Below, one piece after another: positions 32,547 to 47,700 of a DNA stretch of 64,000 nucleotides (positions within the stretch are counted from its first letter, which is position 1; each line of letters opens with the position of its first letter). A program made the position numbers and the translations under genes. Origin of the DNA: Erythrobasidium yunnanense (Eukaryota > Basidiomycota > Cystobasidiomycetes > Erythrobasidiales > Erythrobasidiaceae); assembly GCA_001600175.1 (NCBI GenBank), contig BCJC01000002.1, positions 812,318 through 876,317 on the forward strand. The letters are read 5' to 3'. Under the pieces are notes generated by a model. That model was not told the DNA's origin. It saw only the letters and a list, made by a program, of their open reading frames with translations, and searched no databases.

Positions 32547-34247
32547 CTATGCCTCTGCTCCATTTGTCTGAGATGTCTCGACGGGCACCTCGACGTCCAT
32601 CTTCTCTTCAGCAGCGGCATCTCCATTTGTCTTCTCGCCATCCTTAGCGGCATCCTCAGCAGGAGCAGCAGCATCGCCATTCTTCTCTGCCTTCTTGTCG
32701 TCATCAGGAAGGACAGTCATGTCACCTGCGTTTCCACCATCGGCAGTCGAGGGCTCTTCGCCGTCTTTGGCCATCAACTCCTTCCATTTCTCAACGAGGG
32801 CACCGCTGCGCTCGGTGATCTTGAATTCGGAATCTCGAGGAACGTCGGTGAGAGCAGACATTCGCTTGAGCACTTTTCCAAGCTTGCTGGCCTGTATCGT
32901 GATGTTTGGTCAGCCATGATGTCTCGGTACTGAAAGGATGCTTTGGCGTACCGCGAGCCATTCAGCTTGCATCTCGAACTTCTCCATAGCAGAGAGGATT
33001 TGGTCGAATTCAGGCATTTTCTGCAGAGAGTATGGTCCGCTTAGCCAGGGTCGAGTGCCAGACGGCGAATCACTCACATCTTCAGTGGGCAGGCCCTTCG
33101 TAAGGAAAGCCTTCTGTAGAGATGCTCTCCAGCCTTTGGCCGTCTTTTCGCCTTGGGAGGCATCTGTAAAGAATAAGGAGGCTCAGCGAAGATTCTTCGA
33201 AAGCCACCCTCTAGCAAGCTAGAACAGGCAGCGAGCCCCGGAGACAATGCTCACCTCCTTCAGCAGCGGACGTGCTTCCCTTCTTCTCCTTGGCAGCTTT
33301 GCTATCCTTCTTGTCATCGGTCTGAACCGCCGAGATACTAGATCAGCCTGTTGCACGCCAATTTGACTATATGACGTGCTACACACCTTCCTCTTCTTAG
33401 CAGCAGGTTCCTTCTTCTCCTTTTTAGCAGCGGGTTCCTTCTTTGCTGCGGCTCCTCTCTTTCTCTTCTTGGATTTGCCTTCACCGTCCTCATCGAGCAT
33501 ATCCACGTCTTCATCCTCTTCTTCATCTACATCCTCTCCACCAGCTGGAACGCCCTTCTTGATCTGCTCCTCCCACTCGGATGGATCTTTGGCGATTTCG
33601 TACGACTTGCGGAGCTTGCCATTCTTCTTTGATGTGTCGCTCAAGTAGGCTTCAATGTCCTTTGGTGCGAGGTATTTCATCTCTTTAGGGATCGCCCAGT
33701 GACTGTTGGACGCCAAATAGTACGATCAAGGTTGGTCGATTTGGAAGGCAGCGGGGACGCAGGAAGAAGCCGTAGCAGCGAGAAATGCAGCATGGACAGG
33801 CGACAAGACAGAGGGAGAGAAAGAACAATCATACATCAGCATACTGATCATACAGCGTCAAGTCAGGGCAACGTACAAGTCTCCATCCGGGAAGAATCTG
33901 ACGAGCCATTGCTTGTTTCCCTTGGACTTCATGACGAGGTCGCCAGCTTCTGAGTGCTCAGTGATCTGTTGACAATGTACACAATCACATTAGCTCGGTT
34001 CTTCCACTTTGTACTGCCGGTATGCAGGGAATGGCGGGAAGGGGGGGATTTTCGACGAGGGAGAAGAAACACGCGAGAAAGACGAGGAAAACGAGGAAAC
34101 AGGGAAGAAACAGTGTTTATAAGATGTATAATGCACCTTTCCTGGCCATTCAGGGTAGCCTTTGACCTTGCAAAGCACAATTTCGCCAGTCTTGAAGTCG
34201 TGAGCTGGCTCTGCGGCCTTTGACGAGGTAGCTTTCTTGGGCGGCAT
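32547..34247 (-). CDS. PWWP-domain chromatin protein with TFIIS-N/IBD-like C-terminus
   Basis: Seven exons (34247-34137, 33965-33877, 33702-33387, 33321-33255, 33163-33078, 33020-32952, 32891-32547) give 360 residues. The PWWP domain lies near the start: GEIVLCKVKGYPEWPGK, then after an intron GDLVMKSKGNKQWLVRFFPD and FHWAIPKEMKYL. PWWP domains bind DNA and methylated Lys of histone H3 or H4. A Glu/Asp- and Lys-rich linker (KKEPAAKKEKKEPAAKKRK) looks like a nuclear localisation region. The C-terminal helical part (FLTKGLPTED, MEKFEMQAEWLA, VLKRMSALTDVP) resembles the bundle that follows PWWP in LEDGF/HRP2-like proteins. The last 50 residues are acidic and low-complexity. The exact orthologue is not clear. 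Confidence 0.82.
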
Positions 34248-34552
34248 GATGGGAAGCAGTAATCTAGATGTAGATGTATGTGTATGTATATAATCTTGAA
34301 TATCGTGTCAGAAATGCTCTGTTTTTCCTTTGACTTTTCCTGCAAAGAAAGCCTTACCGCTTTTCCTCGTAAACAGTCAAGTCGACAGAAGGAGAGAGAA
34401 GGTCAAACGCAAAAAACAACATGGTTTGGCCGGAATGCAGCTTCACAGGTTATGCATTGCTTCTAAGTGCACTCTCAATACACATTCATACCACTGTCTC
34501 TTTCCCAGCTCGCTCGACAGGGCGGGTTTTGTAGGGTCGGAAGGATCCCTCT

Positions 34553-35348
34553 CTATCTTAGAGCAGCGTTGAGCGCCTCGAATACCTCAACCTCGACTCT
34601 TGCCTCAGCTGTGGTAATAGTCAGTATGTATATATTGCTAATTGGGAGCTGGACCCACCCTTCTCAGCCTCTGAGCCTGATCCATCGACCACACGCTGGG
34701 CTTCTTGCAGACCAGAGCGGACGGCCTGTACTCAGATCAGCGGCATGCCATGATATAGACTGTAACTGAGCGTACCTCAGGTGAAAAGTCATCCAATGGG
34801 AAGGCCTCTACTGCGTTAATCGTGATGAGATTGGAAGGGTGCTGGAGAAGCGGGAAAGAGAGCGGGAGGATTGCAGGAAAGTCAGAGACGTTCGAAGGAA
34901 GTATTAGATATGACGGACAATGTTTGCGAAACCGCCGGAAGCTGTATATGTACCGCATATCAGTCTCTCTGGGCATATACGGAACGCCCAGCTAGAGAAG
35001 CACTCACCGAACCACTTCTTGCTCTGACCAGCAGACTCGATGACTTCGATGATACCGGGCTTCAATGGCTCGATAGCTGGTACGTGGTTTGCGAGGACAC
35101 CCATGTCTCCCGACTGGGCTGCCAGGTTGACCTGGACGACTTCGGAGGACGAGTAGATGGACTGGAAACACCACAATCTGAGCATTCAAGCCATAACGTT
35201 GTCTTGAAAAGGTCGCTCCCACCTCATGCGGCAGGACGAACGAGAGCTTGATCTTTGTCTGGTCGGCAGCCTCAGCGTAGCCCCGTCTGAGGAGAGCTGG
35301 CTGGAAAGCCGTTCGTCGAGCGACGCTGCGAGCTGCTGCGTGGAACAT
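34553..35348 (-). CDS. ATP16: F1-ATPase delta subunit (mitochondrial ATP synthase)
   Basis: Six exons (35348-35223, 35161-35008, 34941-34919, 34841-34776, 34725-34659, 34608-34553) give 163 residues. A presequence (MFHAAARSVARRTAFQPAL, no acidic residue) precedes the beta-sandwich domain: KLSFVLPHE, SSSEVVQVNLAAQSGDMGVL, ANHVPAIEPLKPGIIEVIE, ASGGFANI, then the helical hairpin INAVEAFPLDDFSPEAVRSG and EARVEVEVFEALNAAL. The subunit sits in the central stalk linking F1 to the c-ring. The third exon is a 23-nt microexon that codes the conserved SGGFA turn, so it cannot be skipped without loss of frame. The bacterial and chloroplast equivalent is called epsilon. Confidence 0.93.
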
Positions 35349-35533
35349 GCTGGATGTATATAGAGCTTGAAACGGTTTCAAGGTCGAGTCTTGAATTCGT
35401 ATTCAAATCGAGTCTTGAATTGGAGGAAAGCCTTGAAGGCAATTCACAGGTCTGCCTTACCTCGACTGGACCGGATTTCTAAGGGCGACAAGAGAGAGAG
35501 CTAACATACAAGTCTTAATCCTACGCATCTACC

Positions 35534-36448
35534 ATGTCCAACAAGGCCGTTGTGAGCTGCAGCGAATCCAGAAACCGGCCTCGAATTGCCTATGTTTCTG
35601 ACACATGAATGAATGCTCGGAAAAGCCCCAAACATATCGCGCTATCATCGATAAAGTCATCAATAGTGTTAGAGCGGACTTTGAAGAGAACGGCGTGGAA
35701 GATGCGGTCCTTCAGGCTCTCCAGGAGGTGAGGCTGGGATCCGTCAAGAAAGCATCAGCCTCAGCTCTGGCTCATTTGGAATTATGCATTATGATGTTAT
35801 AGTCCTGGGAAGCAAAACTCGTCATGTCCAGAGTCGCAGACTTCTCGTCAGATGCAAGATTAGGTGCTTACCAAGGGATGCTACCGCCTCTCCCGCCAAA
35901 GGAGAACAAGCAGAACGACGCGAATAGAAAGCAGACTGATGTATGTTTATCTCGCTTTACCCTTTGTCCTGCCAAGTGCGGCAGTTCCTGACTTGTTTCG
36001 TACCTCCAGGAACAGGATGTGAAGCCTAACATTGCATCAACTTCGAAAGAGCCTCAATCAGCAGCTTCGACAAGCACACCCACACCCACTCTTTCGACCT
36101 CGAAAAGCAGTAAACCCACCCCTTCAAACGACAATGAACTCGGCTCAGACCTCGATGAATCCGATGATGGGTTATCAGACGATGGCCTAGATGGAGATGA
36201 CGATGACCCGAATGGATTAGGTGGCTCTCAAGAAGGAGATATCATAATCGCGCTGTATGAGAAGGTGCAGAGAGTGAAGAATAAATGGAAGATCACCCTC
36301 AAAGATGGAGTCATCTCGGCCGAAGGCAAAGATTACGTATTCAGTAAATGTCAAGGGTGAGTGGAGATCTCTTATCACGCCGGTCTAGACTGCCAAACTG
36401 CTTCAAAGAGGCTGATTCGATTTGCTTGACAGCGATTTTGAGTGGTGA
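35534..36448 (+). CDS. TOA1: TFIIA large subunit (Toa1)
   Basis: Five exons (35534-35551, 35626-35727, 35803-35940, 36010-36356, 36433-36448) give 206 residues. The N-terminal four-helix part is MSNKAV/PQTYRAIIDKVINSVRADF then ENGVEDAVLQALQESWEAKL; the variable middle is Ser/Thr/Pro then Asp-rich; the C-terminal beta-barrel strand block is DIIIALYEKVQRVKNKWK then ITLKDGVISAEGKDYVF, ending GDFEW. TFIIA stabilises TBP on promoters. The first coding exon is only 18 nt, and the last codes GDFEW-stop, the family's typical end. A 26-bp tandem duplication starts inside the last codons. Confidence 0.95.
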
Positions 36449-36491
36449 CGGCGTTTCAGCACCTCGAGTGGTGACGGCGTTTCAGCACCTC
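36440..36491. repeat. Perfect 26-bp tandem duplication across the TOA1 stop codon
   Basis: The unit gagtggtgacggcgtttcag plus cacctc occurs twice without a mismatch at 36440-36465 and 36466-36491. The first copy holds the last codons GAG TGG TGA of TOA1; the second lies in the 3' UTR. The protein is unchanged. Confidence 0.9.
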
Positions 36492-37300
36492 GAGGAATAT
36501 GTTCATCCTCAAATTTGCTACGGATTCCGACCTCAGTACTGCAAGAGCCTTATGTACCATATTTACCTATTCTAGGTGCCCGAACCTTTACCGTCCCTCT
36601 CCCGCACCAGTACAGAGGGAACTTTATAGTGGAGACACACATTCGTCACTTTCTCTCGTTCAGTACGCCATCCTTCCTTCATATCCTTTGAACCTAAAAA
36701 TCAGATCTGTTCAGGGTTGTAGTGCGCCTTCGTTGCTTGCGTCGTGGGGGATTCGGCGTTTTGTAGTAGTACTAGCAGCAAATGATGAATACGACGCAAG
36801 ATCAAGATAGTTACTAATCGTGCGCGAGATACAATATAAGCTTACGCGCTGATATCTGTGCCTGGCTTTCGGTACCCAATTTCAGGCCATTCCGACGGCT
36901 CATGCAGCAATGACAGTTCTCTCCGCGCATCTTGAATGTAGAAGGAGAACGTCAAAGTCGATGCTTCACGGCGCTTGGCATTTCTTTCTGTGCCTGTATC
37001 CCACCGCTTCACTGGAGGGATAAGTTAGTTTTAGCTTATTAGCTGAGCCAGATTGAGTGCCAATACATCGGCTCTCATACGTCTGGCATTTCAGAATGTC
37101 CGAAATAAGTGCGTAATCTCGATAGAAGCTCAAGGCATACGCTTGATCCTAACTTGTCTTTCATTGCATGACGAGGACTAATCTAGCATTCCTACAAGGA
37201 CACTCTAGATACTTCGGAAGCTAACGAAAGAAAAGAAGGGCGGCGAATTTGCCAGTTTTCGCATAGTAAGGAAAGACAGACAGAGAAGATCGCTTCGAGC
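36492..37300. other. Convergent intergenic spacer
   Basis: This is about 800 bp between TOA1 and RPS2 3' ends. It has short frames without domain content, and no RNA gene was recognised. Confidence 0.5.
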
Positions 37301-37860
37301 TTATGCGGCGAACTTCTTGGCAGTGAGGGTAAGGTGAGAAGAGAACTCCTCGTATGGCTGAACGGGGTAGTCGAGTCTCTGCCATAGATCGGGGGTAAGG
37401 TAGGCGTAGGTCTGGGTGATGGCGGCATAGGTGGCCTTGATGAAGTTACTGCAAGCAAAATACGTTAGCATTGTACAGTGATAGTGTATTGAATGCAGCT
37501 CACCCCATGGTGGAGGTGTTTCCTCGGGACTGGGTGTATACGTCCTCGATACCAGCGAGCTGCAACATTCTCTTTGAAGCAGGGGCGGCGACGATACCTG
37601 TACCTCTTGGTGCAGGTACGAGCTTGACGAAGACTGAAGCGCATTTGCCAGAGACTTTTCCAGGTACGGTATGGGGTTCACCGAGCTTAGCACCCCAGTA
37701 TCCTCTTCGGACAGGGACGACGGAGAGCTTGGCGAGGATGATGGCTCCTCGAATGGCAGTTGCGACTTCCTTGGCGCACTTGACACCGAGTCCGAGATGG
37801 CTGTCGGAGTCTCCAATGGCGACGAAAGCCTTGAATCGGGTACGCTGACCAGCTCGGGTC

Positions 37861-37896
<36 letters not shown>

Positions 37897-38275
37897 GTAT
37901 GTTATGCATTAGTTGTGTTCATATCTAGCTGCATTTCGGCCTCACCTTTGAGCTTGGGGAGGAGAAGGTCGATAATCTGGTACTCCTTGACGGGGAGAGA
38001 GAAGAGATAGATCTCTTCAATCGACTTTATTTTTCCGTCCTTCGCGAGGCGTCCAACTGCATTGTATGAAGCGTCAGAGTGCTGCCGTAGCTGTTTTTCC
38101 AGAAAATCGACGGACGCTTAGTGACGGGAACCCATTCCTTCTCTTCATCGCGCTTAGCGCCTCGACGTCCTCTACCACGGCCTCTGCCACGGTCTCCACC
38201 TCTTCCACGTCCGAATCCACCTCTTGCGCCAGCACCTGAAGCGCCGGCAGCGACAGCTGGTGCGTTATCTGCCAT
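37301..38275 (-). CDS. RPS2: 40S ribosomal protein uS5 (Rps2)
   Basis: Four exons (38275-38116, 38056-37946, 37894-37504, 37448-37301) give 269 residues. The N-terminus has the eukaryotic Arg/Gly tail ([20 protein letters not shown]), a known methylation target in Rps2. The S5 double-stranded RNA-binding domain follows ([40 protein letters not shown]). The C-terminal domain includes [20 protein letters not shown] and [20 protein letters not shown], then [18 protein letters not shown]. Rps2 lines the mRNA entry channel of the 40S subunit. The first donor is GTCCGT, weaker than the rest, but the frame and family leave no doubt. Confidence 0.96.
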
Positions 38276-38837
38276 TTTCACGATATGTCGGTTCTGGAGG
38301 TCTTCAAACGAGTATCGAAGTAACAGTCAGAACCTAGAACAGATACAGTATCGTTTGGTGTAGTTTCTGACTTAGGTTTTGGCCAGCTTTCTTGCGCAGA
38401 GCCGCGAAACTTCGTACTTTTTTCCTTGCGGGAAGGCAGTGATCGATTTCAGAGAGGTACGCCCAAAGAACCAGAAATCAAACTGTCCAATCCAATGTCG
38501 ATTAGGGTTAGTTGTTAGTATCAATATCACTTGGGGAAAAAACAACCTGCATAAGACAGCAAAGCAGGGTTTCGATAGGGGGAAATGGATGGTTCAAATT
38601 GCAATGTTTGGGTTGCATGATCCGAGGATGATGGGGGTATCTGAGCCCTTATGTTGCTATTCTATACTCTATACATCTGTATATACCCATTTTACAGCTT
38701 ATCTCGACCATTTCAGTACCGCGAACGTGCGCATTCTGTGATTGGTCGAAATCGGTTCCCTTACCAAAGTTTGCCGCTGAGGGTCTCCTTTCGCCCAACT
38801 AAGTCAGTACCCAGAAACCACAGCTCACAAGCGAAAC
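38276..38837. other. Divergent spacer, RPS2 / antizyme promoters
   Basis: These 562 bp must drive RPS2 on minus and the antizyme gene on plus. An ATTAGGGTTAG stretch occurs at about 38502-38512. No further gene was seen. Confidence 0.45.
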
Positions 38838-39800
38838 ATGTCGAATTCGTCGAAACCAAAACAGAGTAGCCTCTCGCTGGTAGTTGCAGCTACCGGCGTT
38901 GATGGGGCATCTCTCTCTGCTGCTGCCGCCGCCATCGTTGCGCCTACCAAGTTGGACGATACGTTCTGCGTAGGGGGACAGTCCTGGCCCTGGTGAGTTG
39001 CGAATCGTCTACAGACATTGTGCAATCACTGACAATCAGTCTTGACAGACATCGCTATTTCAGCGAAGTCCTCCGCAGGTCTTACAGCAGAGGCGACCAA
39101 TGGAAGTGAGAGATCCAGCGGTCCAGGCCAGCAGGTTACAGGTTCCCAACACGCTACTACAACTACAACACCCGGTTACTTCGACATCAACATTAAGCTA
39201 TCATCATCAACCAACTATCCCCCTTCACCACCCGCCGCCACTGTCGCAGCCGATCCATTGACGCTCGCCAATGTCGCTGCTATCCCATCATCATTCGCCT
39301 CAACCATCTCTACGACCATCTCGGACGACTCTGATTCCTCGTCGGAGGGCTCATTCAGCAGCGCAGCCTCTTCAGTCGCATCTACCGAATCCTTCCTAAA
39401 CAAGGTATTCGGAGCAGAGCATATTGCCGAGCTCGCTAAGAATGGTATTAAAGTCACTCCTATTGAGGAGGAAGAGGAGGAGGAGATCGTCCTCGACTCT
39501 GCTGGTTCAGTCACGGAGAACATGCAGGGAGCCATTCTTGAGTCCGTAGAGAACAGCACAAAGACCCTGTACTGTTCGCCAGAGCTGGAGAAGCTCGACA
39601 GAGAAGGACTTGTCGACCTCATGGAGAGAGCAGACGAAGACTTCGATTGCTCAGGCATCGTCATCTGCTTGAACAAGAAGGACGCTCTGCTGGAGGAGAC
39701 CCTTCACTCGCTCCTCTACGTAGGTGGTGCTATCGTCCCACCCAACGCTGGTCTACTCAAGGTATCGCAGGACATCCTCCTCGTCGGTCTGGATCTCTAA
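38838..39800 (+). CDS. OAZ1: Ornithine decarboxylase antizyme, decoded by +1 ribosomal frameshifting
   Basis: ORF1 runs from ATG 38838 for 51 codons and is Ser/Ala-rich, ending GGQSWP. ORF2 (39049-39800) encodes the antizyme body in the +1 frame. Its C-terminal half has the family pattern: FLNKVFG, then LVDLMERADEDFDCSGIVICL (compare human VLLEFAEEQLRADHVFIC), LLEETLHSLLYVGGAIVPP and ILLVGLDL. Antizyme binds ornithine decarboxylase, sends it to the proteasome without ubiquitin, and blocks polyamine uptake. In this family the stop between the two frames is bypassed by a polyamine-stimulated +1 shift. With the intron 38993-39048 the mRNA reads TCC TGG CCC TGA C, a site of the known class; a shift at CCC-UGA gives a product of about 301 residues. 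No in-frame alternative splice links the ORFs without shifting. Confidence 0.88.
38982..39052 (+). promoter_or_regulatory. Antizyme +1 frameshift site split by an intron
   Basis: Exon 1 ends TCC TGG CCC TG at 38992. The intron (gtgagttg to cttgacag, 38993-39048) joins it to ACATCGC, so the UGA stop exists only in spliced mRNA. Reading CCC then skipping U gives GAC ATC GCT, the ORF2 frame. A second acceptor 9 nt upstream (39039) gives CCC TGT CTT instead, moving the zero-frame stop to 39107-39109 and removing the canonical site. The unspliced transcript reads CCC TGG TGA. Confidence 0.75.
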
Positions 39801-40269
39801 GCGGCTTCGTCAACCTCATCCCATTCAGACTGGCCTCTTCTATTCTATAATTCCCTACACCCCGATAATAGCTTATCATCGTTGATGTGTGCATCTACCT
39901 ATTCCTTTTCCCCGTCTATCGACACACTGCACTCCCGTGTCATGGGCGCTCTTTCAACCTCTTCCCGCTACACCTACGATCGAGTCCTTTCTTCTAGCTT
40001 TCGTATTGGATTTAGTAGTTCTCTCTTTCCGTGCACACATGTATATGTCCGTCCCGCATGCAGCCTGCAGATTTTTCTTTACTTTAAAGCTCTATGTCAT
40101 ATATACAAATACAAACATATTCTTCTGGATATCTCGAGACTGCTTTTTGGTCTGTCCATCTTGCTGTTTTGCGCATTCCTTGTTGATTCTTTACGCGCCG
40201 AGTCTGGCTGACGCGCCTTGCTTCGATTCTGACACAATCTCGGTCTTCTGTTCAGCGACTGCAACAACG
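39801..40269. other. Spacer between antizyme and thymidylate synthase
   Basis: These 469 bp hold the antizyme 3' UTR and the TMP1 promoter. Pyrimidine-rich tracts occur, and no gene was recognised. Confidence 0.5.
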
Positions 40270-41340
<1,071 letters not shown>

Positions 41341-41551
41341 GTCCGATGAGCCTTATCATCTTGGACTGTAACTCCACACTGCTCTTTCTGATGTTATTCA
41401 TTCGTCTTTCATATATATTCGTAATGGGCTCAACACCTTGTAGTTCTAGCATGTATTCAACAGCATTAGTTACCGCAAAGGGCCTGTAGGTCTGCGCAGC
41501 ACATCTAGCCTGCATCGTAAATCTACGATGCTTCCCAATTGGTTACTCGAG

Positions 41552-42433
41552 CTACCACGTAGGGCCCTTGTTCAAGGGATCCCTCCGCAGGTATAAAGTC
41601 CTGCAAGGCACCCATTGCAATCCTTGTACTCCTGGAAATTTCACCTGCAGTCCACCTTGGCCGCACTTTGCCATTTCCAAGGTTGTAACTGTCTTCTCTA
41701 GAGCCTGCTCCATTACCACTCTGCCTCCAATCAGAACACGAGTCTCGATCTCTTCCCAATCGTATGCGAATATCGTGACAGGCTTCTTAAGAGCGATGAA
41801 AGATAGATCCATCAGCTGTAGTGCACCGACTAGTAGCTTTACAGCAGGCTCGGAGCGGACCCAGCAGTTCAGCGAAACGAGATACTCCATCAATATTTTA
41901 GGATGAAAAGATAGGGTGAAGCCGATGTTGTATTTGGTCTGGTCGTTGTAAGCAAAATGCTTAGTGAGCATCGAGCTCTGATCGTTCGTGAGGTTGCGGC
42001 TGATCTGAGGGCGCTTTGAAGGAGCCCAGCCGGAGGTGACGTCCGTAGACTGCGAACGCGAGAGTGGCTCTGAGCGAGGTGCATCGGGACCTAGAAGCTG
42101 ACCTAGAGGTCTTGGAAGGTATTTCGATCTTGCATCGGTCCGGACCAGCTGACTCTCCGACGAATCAGACCTGCTGACCTTAGCTCCTACAGGGAGCGCG
42201 CCAGACATATAGCAATCCTTCTCATCCACGATAGCTGGAGCAGGTGTCGTGCTCTGAATACCTTGCGAGCTGGCAGCACGACCTTTATGCCTTCCTTTGT
42301 TCTTCTGCTCCGGTTGTATTGGAGCCTGAGCTTGCTTTTTCTTGCCAAAGAGAAGTCTCCATAGACTTGGTTCATTGAGATCCTTCTTCTTCCTTCGCTC
42401 AGCAGCTATGGCTCGTTTGGCAGCGATAGACAT
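41552..42433 (-). CDS. Hypothetical protein with basic N-terminus
   Basis: This is one uninterrupted exon of 293 residues, unusual among its intron-rich neighbours. The N-terminus is strongly basic (MSIAAKRAIAAERRKKKD; FGKKKQAQ). The middle is Ser/Pro-rich and probably disordered. The last 130 residues look folded (YNIGFTLSFHPKILMEYLVS, LNCWVRSEPAVKLLVGALQL, TIFAYDWEEIETRVLIGGRV). I do not recognise the family. There is no signal peptide or clear membrane span. It is convergent with thymidylate synthase. Confidence 0.6.
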   Translation of the reverse strand: MSIAAKRAIAAERRKKKDLNEPSLWRLLFGKKKQAQAPIQPEQKNKGRHKGRAASSQGIQSTTPAPAIVDEKDCYMSGALPVGAKVSRSDSSESQLVRTDARSKYLPRPLGQLLGPDAPRSEPLSRSQSTDVTSGWAPSKRPQISRNLTNDQSSMLTKHFAYNDQTKYNIGFTLSFHPKILMEYLVSLNCWVRSEPAVKLLVGALQLMDLSFIALKKPVTIFAYDWEEIETRVLIGGRVVMEQALEKTVTTLEMAKCGQGGLQVKFPGVQGLQWVPCRTLYLRRDPLNKGPTW

Positions 42434-42859
42434 CGGAACTTTTGGACTGTGCTTGAAAGGAACGGCTCAGTTAAGGTGAGCAAGAGAGACTCCCAAGTGG
42501 GGCGTCGGGAAATCAGTGAAGATGTAGACGTCATCTTTTGTAGGGAGGACTGAGAGAGGTGGTTTTGCTAGATTAGCGCCGCTGAGATTAGCTTCAGAAT
42601 GAATATAGGCAGGGCGGCACGTTTCCGTCTATCAGGGTAACAGCCAAGAATGTCCTTTAGTATCTGTACACAGTGGAGGTGCAGTCAGTAAGGCTTCTCC
42701 CTCTATCGGTGCAATGAGCACCTACATTGGCAACACCCTCCGGATATTACACACAACATTGCTACAGCAGGTACCTAGAGCACTGATCTAGAAACTACTA
42801 CCTGTATACTGATCAAGAAGCTGCAAATCTTCCTTATACGCCTACAGCTCAGTGCTAGC
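42434..42859. other. Intergenic, no gene seen
   Basis: This is 426 bp between two minus-strand genes; it presumably holds the LysM gene 3' UTR and the promoter of the basic hypothetical protein. Confidence 0.5.
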
Positions 42860-44674
42860 CTAATTGTTCGACATCACTGGCATAAGCGTGTCTGAGCTTT
42901 TTTGCCGTTGCGGCTGCTTCCTACTAGGCGCTTTCTGATGCCCTGGGGAGGCTGTACGATTCCGGTAATCTCTAGCCAGTTGCATCTCCTCATCATAGCC
43001 CGTCACGCCTAGCCATTGTTTGCTTGTCGTCGAGCCAATCAAAGAAGCTATAAAGCCTGTCCCTGCAGACAAGACGTTCTTGGACGTATTGGATATCCGA
43101 GGAGGTATGGGAGGGGCTGAAGCTCTGTCGTTAGACGATTTTCTCTTGCCCATACCCCTCCGCTGAGCAGGGGAACGATGTATGGGAAGTGGGGCTATGT
43201 CTTGCTCTTCAGATAAACGAGAAGGTGCGAAAGCAAGTGTTACAGGAGTGTTGGATGAATCGGCCGTCCCGCTTTGGCCTGTGATCGCATCGACCATAGG
43301 ATTGCGCGGCCGTAGCCTTAGGTTCGGCGACGAGTCTGCTGCAAGCACCGACAACCTATCGTTCGAAAGAGAAGGAAGGAGGGTCGTACTTGAGCCAGAT
43401 GGGAAAGTGGCCGTATCGGGCGAGCCATTGAGATTGTCTACGGAAATGAGCGGCGATTTGCCCAAGCTTGCGCCTTTTGTCGATTTTGAGGTACTGTTTG
43501 GTATTTGAACGATCTTCAAGGTCTTCTGGACCCTAGAAGGAGCTGGCGAAACAGATGTGGGGGGTAGATCGCTAGACTGGACGGGAGGTGTTTGATAGCC
43601 GGTGCTACTGGCTGAATCGTTGCCATAGTAGTCCGAACCATCACCATAGTCGGAGTTGGTTGAAGATAGGTATGGCACCGTCGCTACGGGTCTATGTATG
43701 CTAGACATGTCTTCGGACAGCAAGTCGCCCCTTTGCCTCGATAGAGGCCGGACGGAGGAGAATATACGATCAACATCCAGAGAGGAGCGTTCTGACCGGG
43801 AGGAGCTCATGCGACCAGCAGACACTGATCGGAAATGCCCATTCGACGGGGCCGGCGAAGCGGGAGCAGCGCTGTCGCAAGCGTTTGAATACATCTGCAG
43901 TACGTCCTCCGACGAGGACTGGACAAACTCGACCTCCTTGGATGGAGGCTGAGTACAGGCATCGAGCGGAACGTAGAGGGTCTTCCGCAGCTGGATTGGA
44001 TCGTTCAGCCAGAGCTTATTTGCTGTCCGAATAGCTTGCGTCTATAGGAGTGATTAAGCAACGCTCTGCAACCACTCGAAGTGGAAACGTACTGTGCAGC
44101 CATAAAGAAGCGCTATTCCGGCCAAAGTATCGCCTTTCTCCACCATGTGCAAGATGGCGTCTCTCCCATCGTTTTGCAAGCTAGACCAGCCGAGGTCCAC
44201 TCCATTCGCAGACTCTACCGATGCAGCTCTGGATCTCCCTTTGCCCTTAACCCGCAACCGGCGAAGCTCGTCCAGACTCCGTCGCTGGCCGCTGAAGGCA
44301 TCCTCTCGGGTTGACAGGGATTCGGTGCTTGCATTACCAAGTAGATTAGAAGAAGAGCCAAGGAGAGAAAGCCTGTCTAGGCCATGAAGTAGTCCGCTCG
44401 AGGATGTCAGCCTAGAGAGCGACGGTCGCGTTGCTTCCTGTATCAGATCATCCTGCTGGGTCGGCAAACGAGATCGTTGGCTGGTAGGAAGGAGGAGGTT
44501 GTTCGAGGTAGAGTCTATACGGCCGTTAACTGCCCTACCAGGTTCACGGCTGCCAGGATCGCGATAAGCGAGCGAGGTTGACGGAGTCGCATCTAGCCAT
44601 GGATTGCTTGATGTACTGGCCATTCCGACATTATGCAAGTTGTTCGAATCGTAGTTCCCGGTCTGCCATTCCAT
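42860..44674 (-). CDS. Intracellular LysM-domain protein
   Basis: Two exons (44674-44093, 44041-42860) give 587 residues. A single LysM domain spans the intron at about residues 180-225: HMVEKGDTLAGIALLYGCT, then IRTANKLWLNDPIQLRKTLYV and PL. Unlike secreted chitin-binding LysM effectors there is no signal peptide, and long Ser-rich disordered regions flank the domain, which fits the cytoplasmic LysMD1/2-type architecture seen in many fungi. The role is unknown. Residues after 230 include a QTPPVQSSDLPPTSVSPAP-type proline stretch and an APPIPPRI motif that could bind SH3 domains. It is divergent from VPS53 with 122 bp between starts. Confidence 0.8.
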
Positions 44675-44796
44675 ACGATTTGGCCCTCCAAGGCCAAGCT
44701 CCGGCTGTTCAAAGGCTCTCTTGATGACCAGCTAACACGTTCGCGTTGAATTGGGTTCAAGGGATACCAAAGACTTTTGGAATCTGGCTGTAAATC

Positions 44797-47700
44797 ATGC
44801 AGCAGCTGCCGACCGAGATCCTAGAGATGCTAGGAGAGAAACCCCAAGATAGCTGGAGCATTGAAGACACCTTGAACGGCCTACTTGCAAACAGCGACGA
44901 GAACGGTGAAGACAGCGAGAACAAGCAAATCGGTACATTACGAAACGATGCTGGTCCTCATGCTGCGAACCTGTACTGACTGACGCGAGCCAGACACATA
45001 TAACCGTCTCGAGGTGATCCAACTCGGCATTCGCGACCGGATAGCGAGCCAGAGACGCGCAATAGCAAGACTCAATGCAGATATCGCTGCCGCCCAGACC
45101 TTGGACCGAATGTCAGCGGCACAGGAACGCATCACGGAGCTCTTTACCCAGATACACCACTTGCGAACGGGCGCTACAGAGTCTGAGATCATTGTTAGAG
45201 ATATTACGAGAGATATCAAGACACTGGATCTGGCGAAGAAGAACATCGTGGGCAGCATCACCGGAGTCAAGCGATTCCAAATGCTTGTAGTCGCATTCGA
45301 TCAGCTGTCGAAACAGGCAAAAGGCAGACATTACAAGGAGTCTGCACATGCTCTGAGTGTAAGCTGAAATGATGGTCAACTCTCCCAGCCCATTTAACAC
45401 TTGTTTCGCAGGCTGTCAAAGAGCTTGCAACCCACTTCAGGACTTTCAACTCGATAGACCGGATCAATGGTCTACTGAAAGGCGTGAGCGAGATCCAAGG
45501 TGTTATGCGGGCCCAAGTTATGGATGACTTCCAGAAAGCGTGAGTTGAGGGACTCGACTTACTGAGCATGCACTAATGCAATGCATAGCATGGGTCGCCG
45601 CGATACTGCTATTCACAATAATTCTGAGGGCATCAATGTGACACAATTGAGCGAGGCGTGCTTGGTCGTCGATGCTGTCGGGCCGGATGCGAGGCATGCC
45701 TTGCTAGAATGGTACTGCAACCAGCAGCTACATGACTACAGGCGGATATTCAGGCCTTCCGAAGAAGCAGGACAAATTGATAACCTGTCTAGGCGGTATG
45801 CATGGTTTCGGAGACTGCTCAAACAGTACGAAGAGGGCGAGCATGCTCGCATATTCCCGAAGGAATGGAAAGTGCCGCATTGTCTGGCAGCTTCGTTCGC
45901 AGCTGTCACAAAGGATGACCTCAAGAGCGTACTTGTGAGGGTAGCAAGCGGGCTCGACGTCAAACGACTGCTGGATGCGCTTAACGAAGCGACCGAGTTT
46001 GAAGGCGAGATGAGCAAGAAGCTCCAGATGCCTGTAAGTCGGTGGTCCTGTCCAATTAGCTCAATATAGCTGACCATTCTGTCCATAGTTCGAGCAAATG
46101 ACCACTCTGTCTCCCATCACGCATGGTACTGCTATCGTGTCCATCTCTTCCGTCTTCGAGCCTTACCTGGGCATCTTCGTCGATGCACAAGATCGTTCGT
46201 TGAGCGAGATGATATCGCGCTGGCGGTCTCGCAAAGAGCCTCTAGAAGGCAAAACGGCATCAGGCGAGTCCAACGAGGCCGGCAACATTCGCCCTGCTTC
46301 AGTCCTGCCTAGCAGTATGGAGTTGTTCCACTTCTACAGAGAGACAATCGACAGATGCGCCCAGCTCAGCACCAAGGCTACCTTCCTGGAACTATGCAAT
46401 GTATACAAGAAGTGGCTCAAGGTGTATGCTGAAGAGGTTCTGGGAGGATTGCTGTCAAAGTAAGCGTAGAGAATTGTCTGTCAAGACGCATCTCACAGGC
46501 TGCTTCGCAGAACGGACCGGCACTCCACCGAAGGTCGTGTCAATCAGCAAGAGATACTGCAAGCATGTCTAGTCTTAAATACAGCAGACTATTGTGCAGA
46601 AACAACAACCCAGGTAAGCAACATTTCGTTAACGCGTGTGCTAAGCATGCTGCTTACGTTCGGCCAGCTTGAGGATACCTTGAAGCGTCGCATCCATCCT
46701 GCCTTCAAGGATCGCGTCTTTTTAGACTCTGAGAAGGACCTTTTCACGACGTAAGTGTCCATCACCTACGTGATCTTGCTTGCGCTAACTTTCATGCTAT
46801 GCTAGCGTAGTTACGGCTGCCATTCTTTCCCTGTTAAAAGAGCTAGAGTTCAGCCTAGAGCCTGCCCTGAACGCCATGCTACGGTCTCCTTGGCGTGATA
46901 GCACTATCGTCTCTTCGGAATCTTCGTACATCCAGGACTTCACTCTGGCTATAAACAGAGTCGCGGATCTCGTCAAAACCGAAGTCGAGCACAGAAAATA
47001 CTTCAGAAGCTTCTGTGACAAGGTCGTCGGGTACGTACTTCCCCGCTTGGGGTACTGTCTCACTCTGACAGCGATTGTAGGCTTGTTCTCATGCGGTTCA
47101 CTCAAGCTATCGTTCGGGCACGGCCGATCTCTCCTACGGGTGCTGAACAAGTGAGCGGCTCTCTTCGAACACCTTCGGACGATTTCTGACGTTAGTAACT
47201 GACTGACAGATCCTTCTGGATCTGCAACGCCTGAAGAGCTGTCTACTTCAGCTGCCTAGACTGGCTGGCGAAGGACAAGGATCGACGGCCTTAGCTTCGT
47301 GAGTGACTGCCGCCGTCCTTCTCCATAGAAACTTATGATGTTCCGCTGCTTCAGCTACAACCGCGTAGTCGCGAAGAGTATAGGCAAAGTGGACATCATG
47401 CTGCAGGTGATCATGTGTCCCGAGCATCCACCAGAAGCTTTCGTAGACCACTACCTCGTGCTCATTCCGTGTCAATCATTCTCAGACTTCCAGAAGATGC
47501 TGGACCTCAAAGGCGTCCGTAGGGCTGAGCAGAACAATCTCCTGGATATCTTCCTGGCGAAGACGTCTCTTCTGCGAGATCTAGCAGACAATTCACTTCT
47601 GACAGGTATCGAAATGGATGCAGGCAACAGCGGACAGCCAGCCGCGACTATCACTTCATCGGCAGGGCTGAGTGGTATGGGCATGGGCGTGGGAGGTATA

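Follow-up and report, generated by a model that had tools for sequence, protein, structure and literature searches.

Can an intron lie inside the stop codon at which an antizyme message changes its reading frame? Antizyme is a brake on polyamine synthesis. In this family, ribosomes stop at the UGA that ends the first open reading frame (ORF1) or, at high polyamine levels, shift by +1 on its last sense codon. The question is raised by a stretch of 64,000 nucleotides (nt) of Erythrobasidium yunnanense (assembly GCA_001600175.1, contig BCJC01000002.1, positions 812,318 to 876,317 of the forward strand), here called the window, whose own numbering is used below. An earlier reading of its letters, the original prediction, had proposed that the UGA of an antizyme gene exists only after a 56-nt intron is removed. 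Our analysis indicates that the locus is very probably an antizyme gene whose shift site, UGG-CCC-UGA-C, is made by the removal of 38993–39048 and at which a polyamine-responsive +1 shift would yield antizyme.

ORF1 starts with the ATG at 38838. Its zero frame ends with TCC TGG CCC (38982–38990) and TG (38991–38992), followed by GTGAGT, and UGG is the codon directly 5′ of CCC (position −2). The second exon begins A CATCG at 39049. In-silico splicing gave the predicted mRNA UCC-UGG-CCC-UGA-C at the join, with the antizyme frame, ORF2, in +1; the first codon of ORF2 is composed of G 38992, A 39049, and C 39050. In genomic DNA, ORF1 and ORF2 stand in the same frame modulo 3 with stops between them. 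Because 56 nt (2 modulo 3) are removed, ORF2 shifts to +1 and CCC-UGA-C is created. After the top-ranked predicted splice, and conditional on it, ORF1 thus ends in UGA and ORF2 lies in +1. ORF2 has no in-frame ATG upstream of 39522, and the trans-frame product would have 51 + 250 = 301 residues.

Further upstream, a frame of 72 codons begins with an ATG at 38651 (38651–38869, stop 38867–38869) and runs across the antizyme start codon, which is in a different frame. This would be an overlapping upstream open reading frame if the transcript begins upstream of 38651.

The splice sites were scored with a model built on 264 kb of this genome, made up of the window and twenty further stretches of 10 kb. 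Model introns were picked by splice-like motifs and by coding score on both flanks, and the donor, branch, and acceptor matrices were refined over five rounds, giving 301 inferred introns. This iterative model superseded earlier intron sets of 67 and 39 candidates, which were too few and noisy. The 301 introns were inferred computationally, and some will be wrong. Their lengths peak at 50–64 nt (135 of 301), the branch is mostly CTGA, and the branch A lies 13–22 nt from the exon in 158 of the 301. The antizyme intron is outside the training set because its joined frame carries a stop. It scored 26.1 bits, ranking first among the 709 GT/GC-AG pairs whose donor falls within 38838–39060, at the 98th percentile of the inferred introns and over their 95th percentile (25.1). 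Donors with an intron of at least 26.1 bits numbered 15 in 528,000 strand-bases (264 kb, both strands), the antizyme donor included. Intron length and branch-to-acceptor distance were both within the modal range. Branch A 39032 precedes the final base of the intron by 16 nt; the intron closes with GACAG at 39048. The model was checked at three places, two in thymidylate synthase and one in ornithine decarboxylase (ODC) (Table 1), where the top local pair gave the joined protein expected from conservation, the conserved residues being taken in part from general knowledge of these proteins. The splice sites 38992/39049 are strong model predictions. The central claim of the original prediction was confirmed at this level: CCC-TG joins A-CATCG, and the UGA exists only once the predicted intron has been removed.

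The hexamer coding score showed that ORF1 is read in its zero frame (+7.8, vs. −24.8 and −21.0 in the other frames) and ORF2 (39051–39797) in the shifted one (+112.9, vs. −60.2 and −80.6). The score of the intron was negative in all three frames. The head of exon 2 (39051–39116, 66 nt) scored +11.1 in the ORF2 frame, vs. −4.4 and −6.5. A 66-nt score of at least 11.1 was reached by none of 1,902 windows in each wrong frame of long ORFs, by 16.4% of 1,902 true-frame windows, and by 1.4% of 1,931 random open frames, the long ORFs being the same that trained the coding score. The frames on either side of the intron differ as a +1 shift requires, and coding bias puts the change near the junction.

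The Pfam antizyme profile PF02100 (ODC_AZ) matched the open frame 39033–39800 with an E value of 1.1e-8 (35.4 bits, cut-off 24.2). The match spans residues 187–242 of the open frame from 39033 and positions 40–96 of the 114 in the profile. When all six frames of the 20.9 Mb genome were searched, no second PF02100 match appeared. On this sequence evidence, the gene of ORF2 is an antizyme gene, the sole one found in the genome. An ODC homologue was found in the same genome (PF02784, E 1.6e-79). The assignment to antizyme with a shift site of a known class had also been part of the original prediction and agrees with the record: the available text of PMC5009743 lists CCC_UGA as a recorded but rare antizyme shift site, most genes having UCC_UGA. 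No antizyme structure was found in the PDB by phmmer with ORF2, which gave two weak matches (E 1.2 and 7.1), and AlphaFold, run on the ORF2 sequence alone, gave a low-confidence model (mean pLDDT 40). A scan of viral contigs with ORF2 gave 313 stretches that matched a pattern, of which tblastn identified none as a relative.

The proposed mechanism would run as follows. The intron 38993–39048 would be removed and CCC-UG joined to A-C, giving UGG-CCC-UGA-C. The majority of ribosomes would terminate at the UGA, giving a peptide of 51 residues. At high polyamine levels, a fraction of them would instead slip +1, the peptidyl-tRNA-Pro re-pairing from CCC to CCU before GAC is read, and the 301-residue antizyme so produced would inhibit ODC and direct its breakdown. 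We infer the splicing route, the frameshifting, the tRNA re-pairing, and the polyamine drive, the last by analogy with the family. UGG at codon −2 also occurs in some non-Agaricomycete basidiomycetes, and shifting was not lost when this was tested, according to the sections available of PMC4505036.

Several points weigh against this reading. In a mammalian test CCC_UGA performed less well than UCC_UGA, and in animals the conserved UGG stands at a distance from the shift codon that is greater by one codon than in this locus (human antizyme 1 ...RWCS), both as given in the accessible part of PMC5009743. An unusually stable RNA structure 3′ of the site was absent from the five segments folded (z −1.5 to +0.5, pseudoknot-free folding), and no shift stimulator was identified. 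The last 60 nt of ORF1 taken alone are neutral (−0.5) and show no coding bias. The splice model is founded on computationally inferred introns, and the acceptor 39063 trails by only 3.1 bits. Searches for RNA elements gave the following. No Rfam family matched in 34000–45000 at E 1 or better. A 15-base tRNA-Pro pattern was uninformative (75 forward and 65 reverse matches, vs. 62 and 72 for the control). ARAGORN, run on 6 of the 20 loci, detected no tRNA, and RF00005 gave 17 matches in the tRNA search, without sequences.

The alternative that survives best is that the intron ends at an acceptor other than 39048, which we consider unlikely. With acceptor 39063 (23.0 bits, rank 2 of 709), 39039 (20.3), 39078 (18.0), or 39087 (17.0), ORF1 would be lengthened and the +1 shift would take place at UGG-AAG-UGA-G (39101–39110). 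With 39090 (16.0 bits, rank 9), CCC-UGA would still be built, with G next. With all five acceptors ORF2 stays in +1 relative to the stop, and UGG also precedes AAG-UGA. However, they are at least 3.1 bits weaker than 39048, and 39063 needs 39065–39107 to be read in a frame without coding bias (−1.3, vs. +7.0 in the ORF2 frame). AAG_UGA is not known as a shift site of antizymes. Since 39090 also makes CCC-UGA, the motif alone does not single out 39048; it is singled out by its splice score and by the coding score of 39051–39107 (+11.6 in the ORF2 frame). The original prediction had made antizyme translation dependent on one acceptor. Its choice of 39048 stood as the best-scoring site, and the dependence is strong though in principle not complete, given that 39090 would build the same stop and that 39063, 39039, 39078, and 39087 would keep ORF2 in +1.

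The unspliced RNA bears on a second alternative. With the intron retained, the zero frame reads one extra codon before its stop (CCC UGG UGA). The +1 frame is open for 17 codons only, and the −1 frame reaches its end at 39107. Since all these frames close, neither a +1 nor a −1 shift at CCC can reach ORF2. Splicing is needed to build the shift site and to open ORF2, and not to terminate ORF1. Splicing could be a second regulatory gate if retention or the choice of acceptor, possibly in response to polyamines, determined the amount of antizyme-competent mRNA. ORF2 is out of reach in retained-intron RNA and two rival acceptors come within 6 bits of 39048, which would suit such a gate, but the splice sites score at the upper end of the range for this genome, and their strength argues for constitutive splicing; we hold this gate to be very improbable. 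We give just as little credit to double gating in this lineage, in which splicing would assemble the shift site, polyamines or stress would regulate retention or acceptor choice, and only a fraction of the mRNA would frameshift. Most likely, the intron in the stop codon is a constitutive intron in an odd location and not a regulatory device.

It is scarcely credible that another intron brings the two ORFs into a single frame and makes frameshifting unnecessary, the outcome that would have contradicted the original prediction: fusing pairs exist (38993–39106 and others), but in silico they rank 14 or lower, the best of them (rank 14, 13.2 bits) is under the 5th percentile of inferred introns (13.8) and deletes 39049–39106, which is strongly coding in the ORF2 frame, and +1 frameshifting is the rule among antizymes in the consulted parts of PMC5009743 and PMC4505036.

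The background rate of stop codons across junctions was estimated in the 264 kb sample. Of the 644 donors that scored 20 or more, combined with an upstream coding score of at least 0, 469 cases remained. Stop codons across the junction were rare, with 5 in the 469, and none of these 5 had a +1 frame score of at least 5 (best 1.7). With a splice score of at least 24 the proportion was 0/83, and with the stricter upstream score of at least 3 it was 3/229. The antizyme gene is not among the 469, its upstream 60 nt (−0.5) just missing the filter, and the test gives a background rate, not a detection of antizyme.

If the preferred reading, a shift site assembled by removal of 38993–39048, is true, a site present only in spliced mRNA would escape genome scans for frameshift motifs. 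Automatic gene models would be broken, and genomic-DNA reporters would act differently from cDNA reporters. The position of the intron in antizyme genes would become a testable constraint. The only predicted coding-region intron lies inside the ORF1 stop, so the coding sequence has no exon junction downstream of this stop. Messages terminated at ORF1 should therefore not set off junction-dependent nonsense-mediated decay, as judged from known decay rules and for the coding sequence only, introns of the 3′ untranslated region not having been looked for.

Table 1. Features of the antizyme locus and introns used to check the splice model (positions in the window unless prefixed).
Feature	Position	Strand	Remarks and basis
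ORF1, coding part of exon 1	38838..38992	+	51 codons MSNSSK...GGQSWP, then TG of the stop; translation, coding score
Upstream part of shift site, TCC TGG CCC TG	38982..38992	+	Sequence
Predicted 56-nt spliceosomal intron GTGAGT...CTGAC...GACAG	38993..39048	+	Top of 709 pairs; splits UGA after its second base
Predicted branch site CTGAC, branch A 39032	39029..39033	+	Best-scoring branch in the intron
A completing the UGA stop after splicing	39049..39049	+	In-silico join
ORF2	39050..39800	+	+1 after CCC, GAC ATC GCT...; stop TAA 39798-39800
TGG AAG TGA, rival shift site	39101..39109	+	Ends the zero frame with acceptor 39039, 39063, 39078, or 39087
Checked introns, thymidylate synthase	40387-40455, 40877-40930		Conserved protein sequence
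Checked intron, ODC	L022:2297-2353		Conserved protein sequence

The antizyme gene is adjoined downstream by a thymidylate synthase gene (40270–41340) with two predicted introns (Table 1). Its best PDB match was 2aaz, which we take to be from Cryptococcus neoformans and which by itself would suggest a tremellomycete. A divergent neighbour on the minus strand (37301–38275) resembles ribosomal protein S2 (uS5) by eye, and no Pfam family exceeded the cut-off when its first part was scanned. The start codons of this neighbour and of the antizyme gene are about 560 bp apart.

The novelty of the locus lies in its gene structure, a UGA split by a predicted intron, and the mechanism is that of an ordinary antizyme. 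A splice junction inside the antizyme stop had been unfamiliar to the original prediction, and we likewise found none in print in a limited search. An intron inside the shift site is undescribed in the available portions of PMC4505036, PMC2375905, PMC5009743, PMC9604110, PMC4528330, PMC1526716, PMC3777964, and PMC12551717. Titles and abstract openings among the matches listed in a limited literature search contained no split shift-site stop, and older antizyme literature may mention cases. The main text of PMC4505036 has 0 occurrences of 'intron' and 'splic' and does not discuss gene structure.

The closest material for comparison is the set of 55 basidiomycete antizyme mRNA sequences of PMC4505036, with four Tremellomycetes in its alignment. 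As far as the accessible text of that paper goes, a 3′ stimulatory RNA structure is present in many lineages and reported absent in Tremellomycetes, where it is no defining trait of antizymes; this group also lacks the 5′ peptide similarity of Agaricomycetes. The locus studied here resembles these mRNAs in having UGG at −2, as found outside Agaricomycetes, and resembles the Tremellomycetes in showing no stable 3′ structure; it differs from the Agaricomycete antizymes in its shift codon, CCC instead of UUU (PMC4505036, same portion). GlAZ of Ganoderma lucidum is also a basidiomycete antizyme gene, and one of its gene models contained 'an obvious GT-AG intron region' (PMC9604110, in part). However, its shift structure is reported as TTTGA, and the place of its intron is unstated in that text, which neither supports nor excludes a shift-site intron. 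Drosophila Oda likewise has several exons and a +1 shift, but no split stop is mentioned in the material at hand. With known +1 antizymes in general, the gene shares two ORFs in +1, the UGA end of ORF1, a UGG close upstream, and PF02100 in ORF2; it differs from them in that its UGA is split by a predicted intron between bases 2 and 3.
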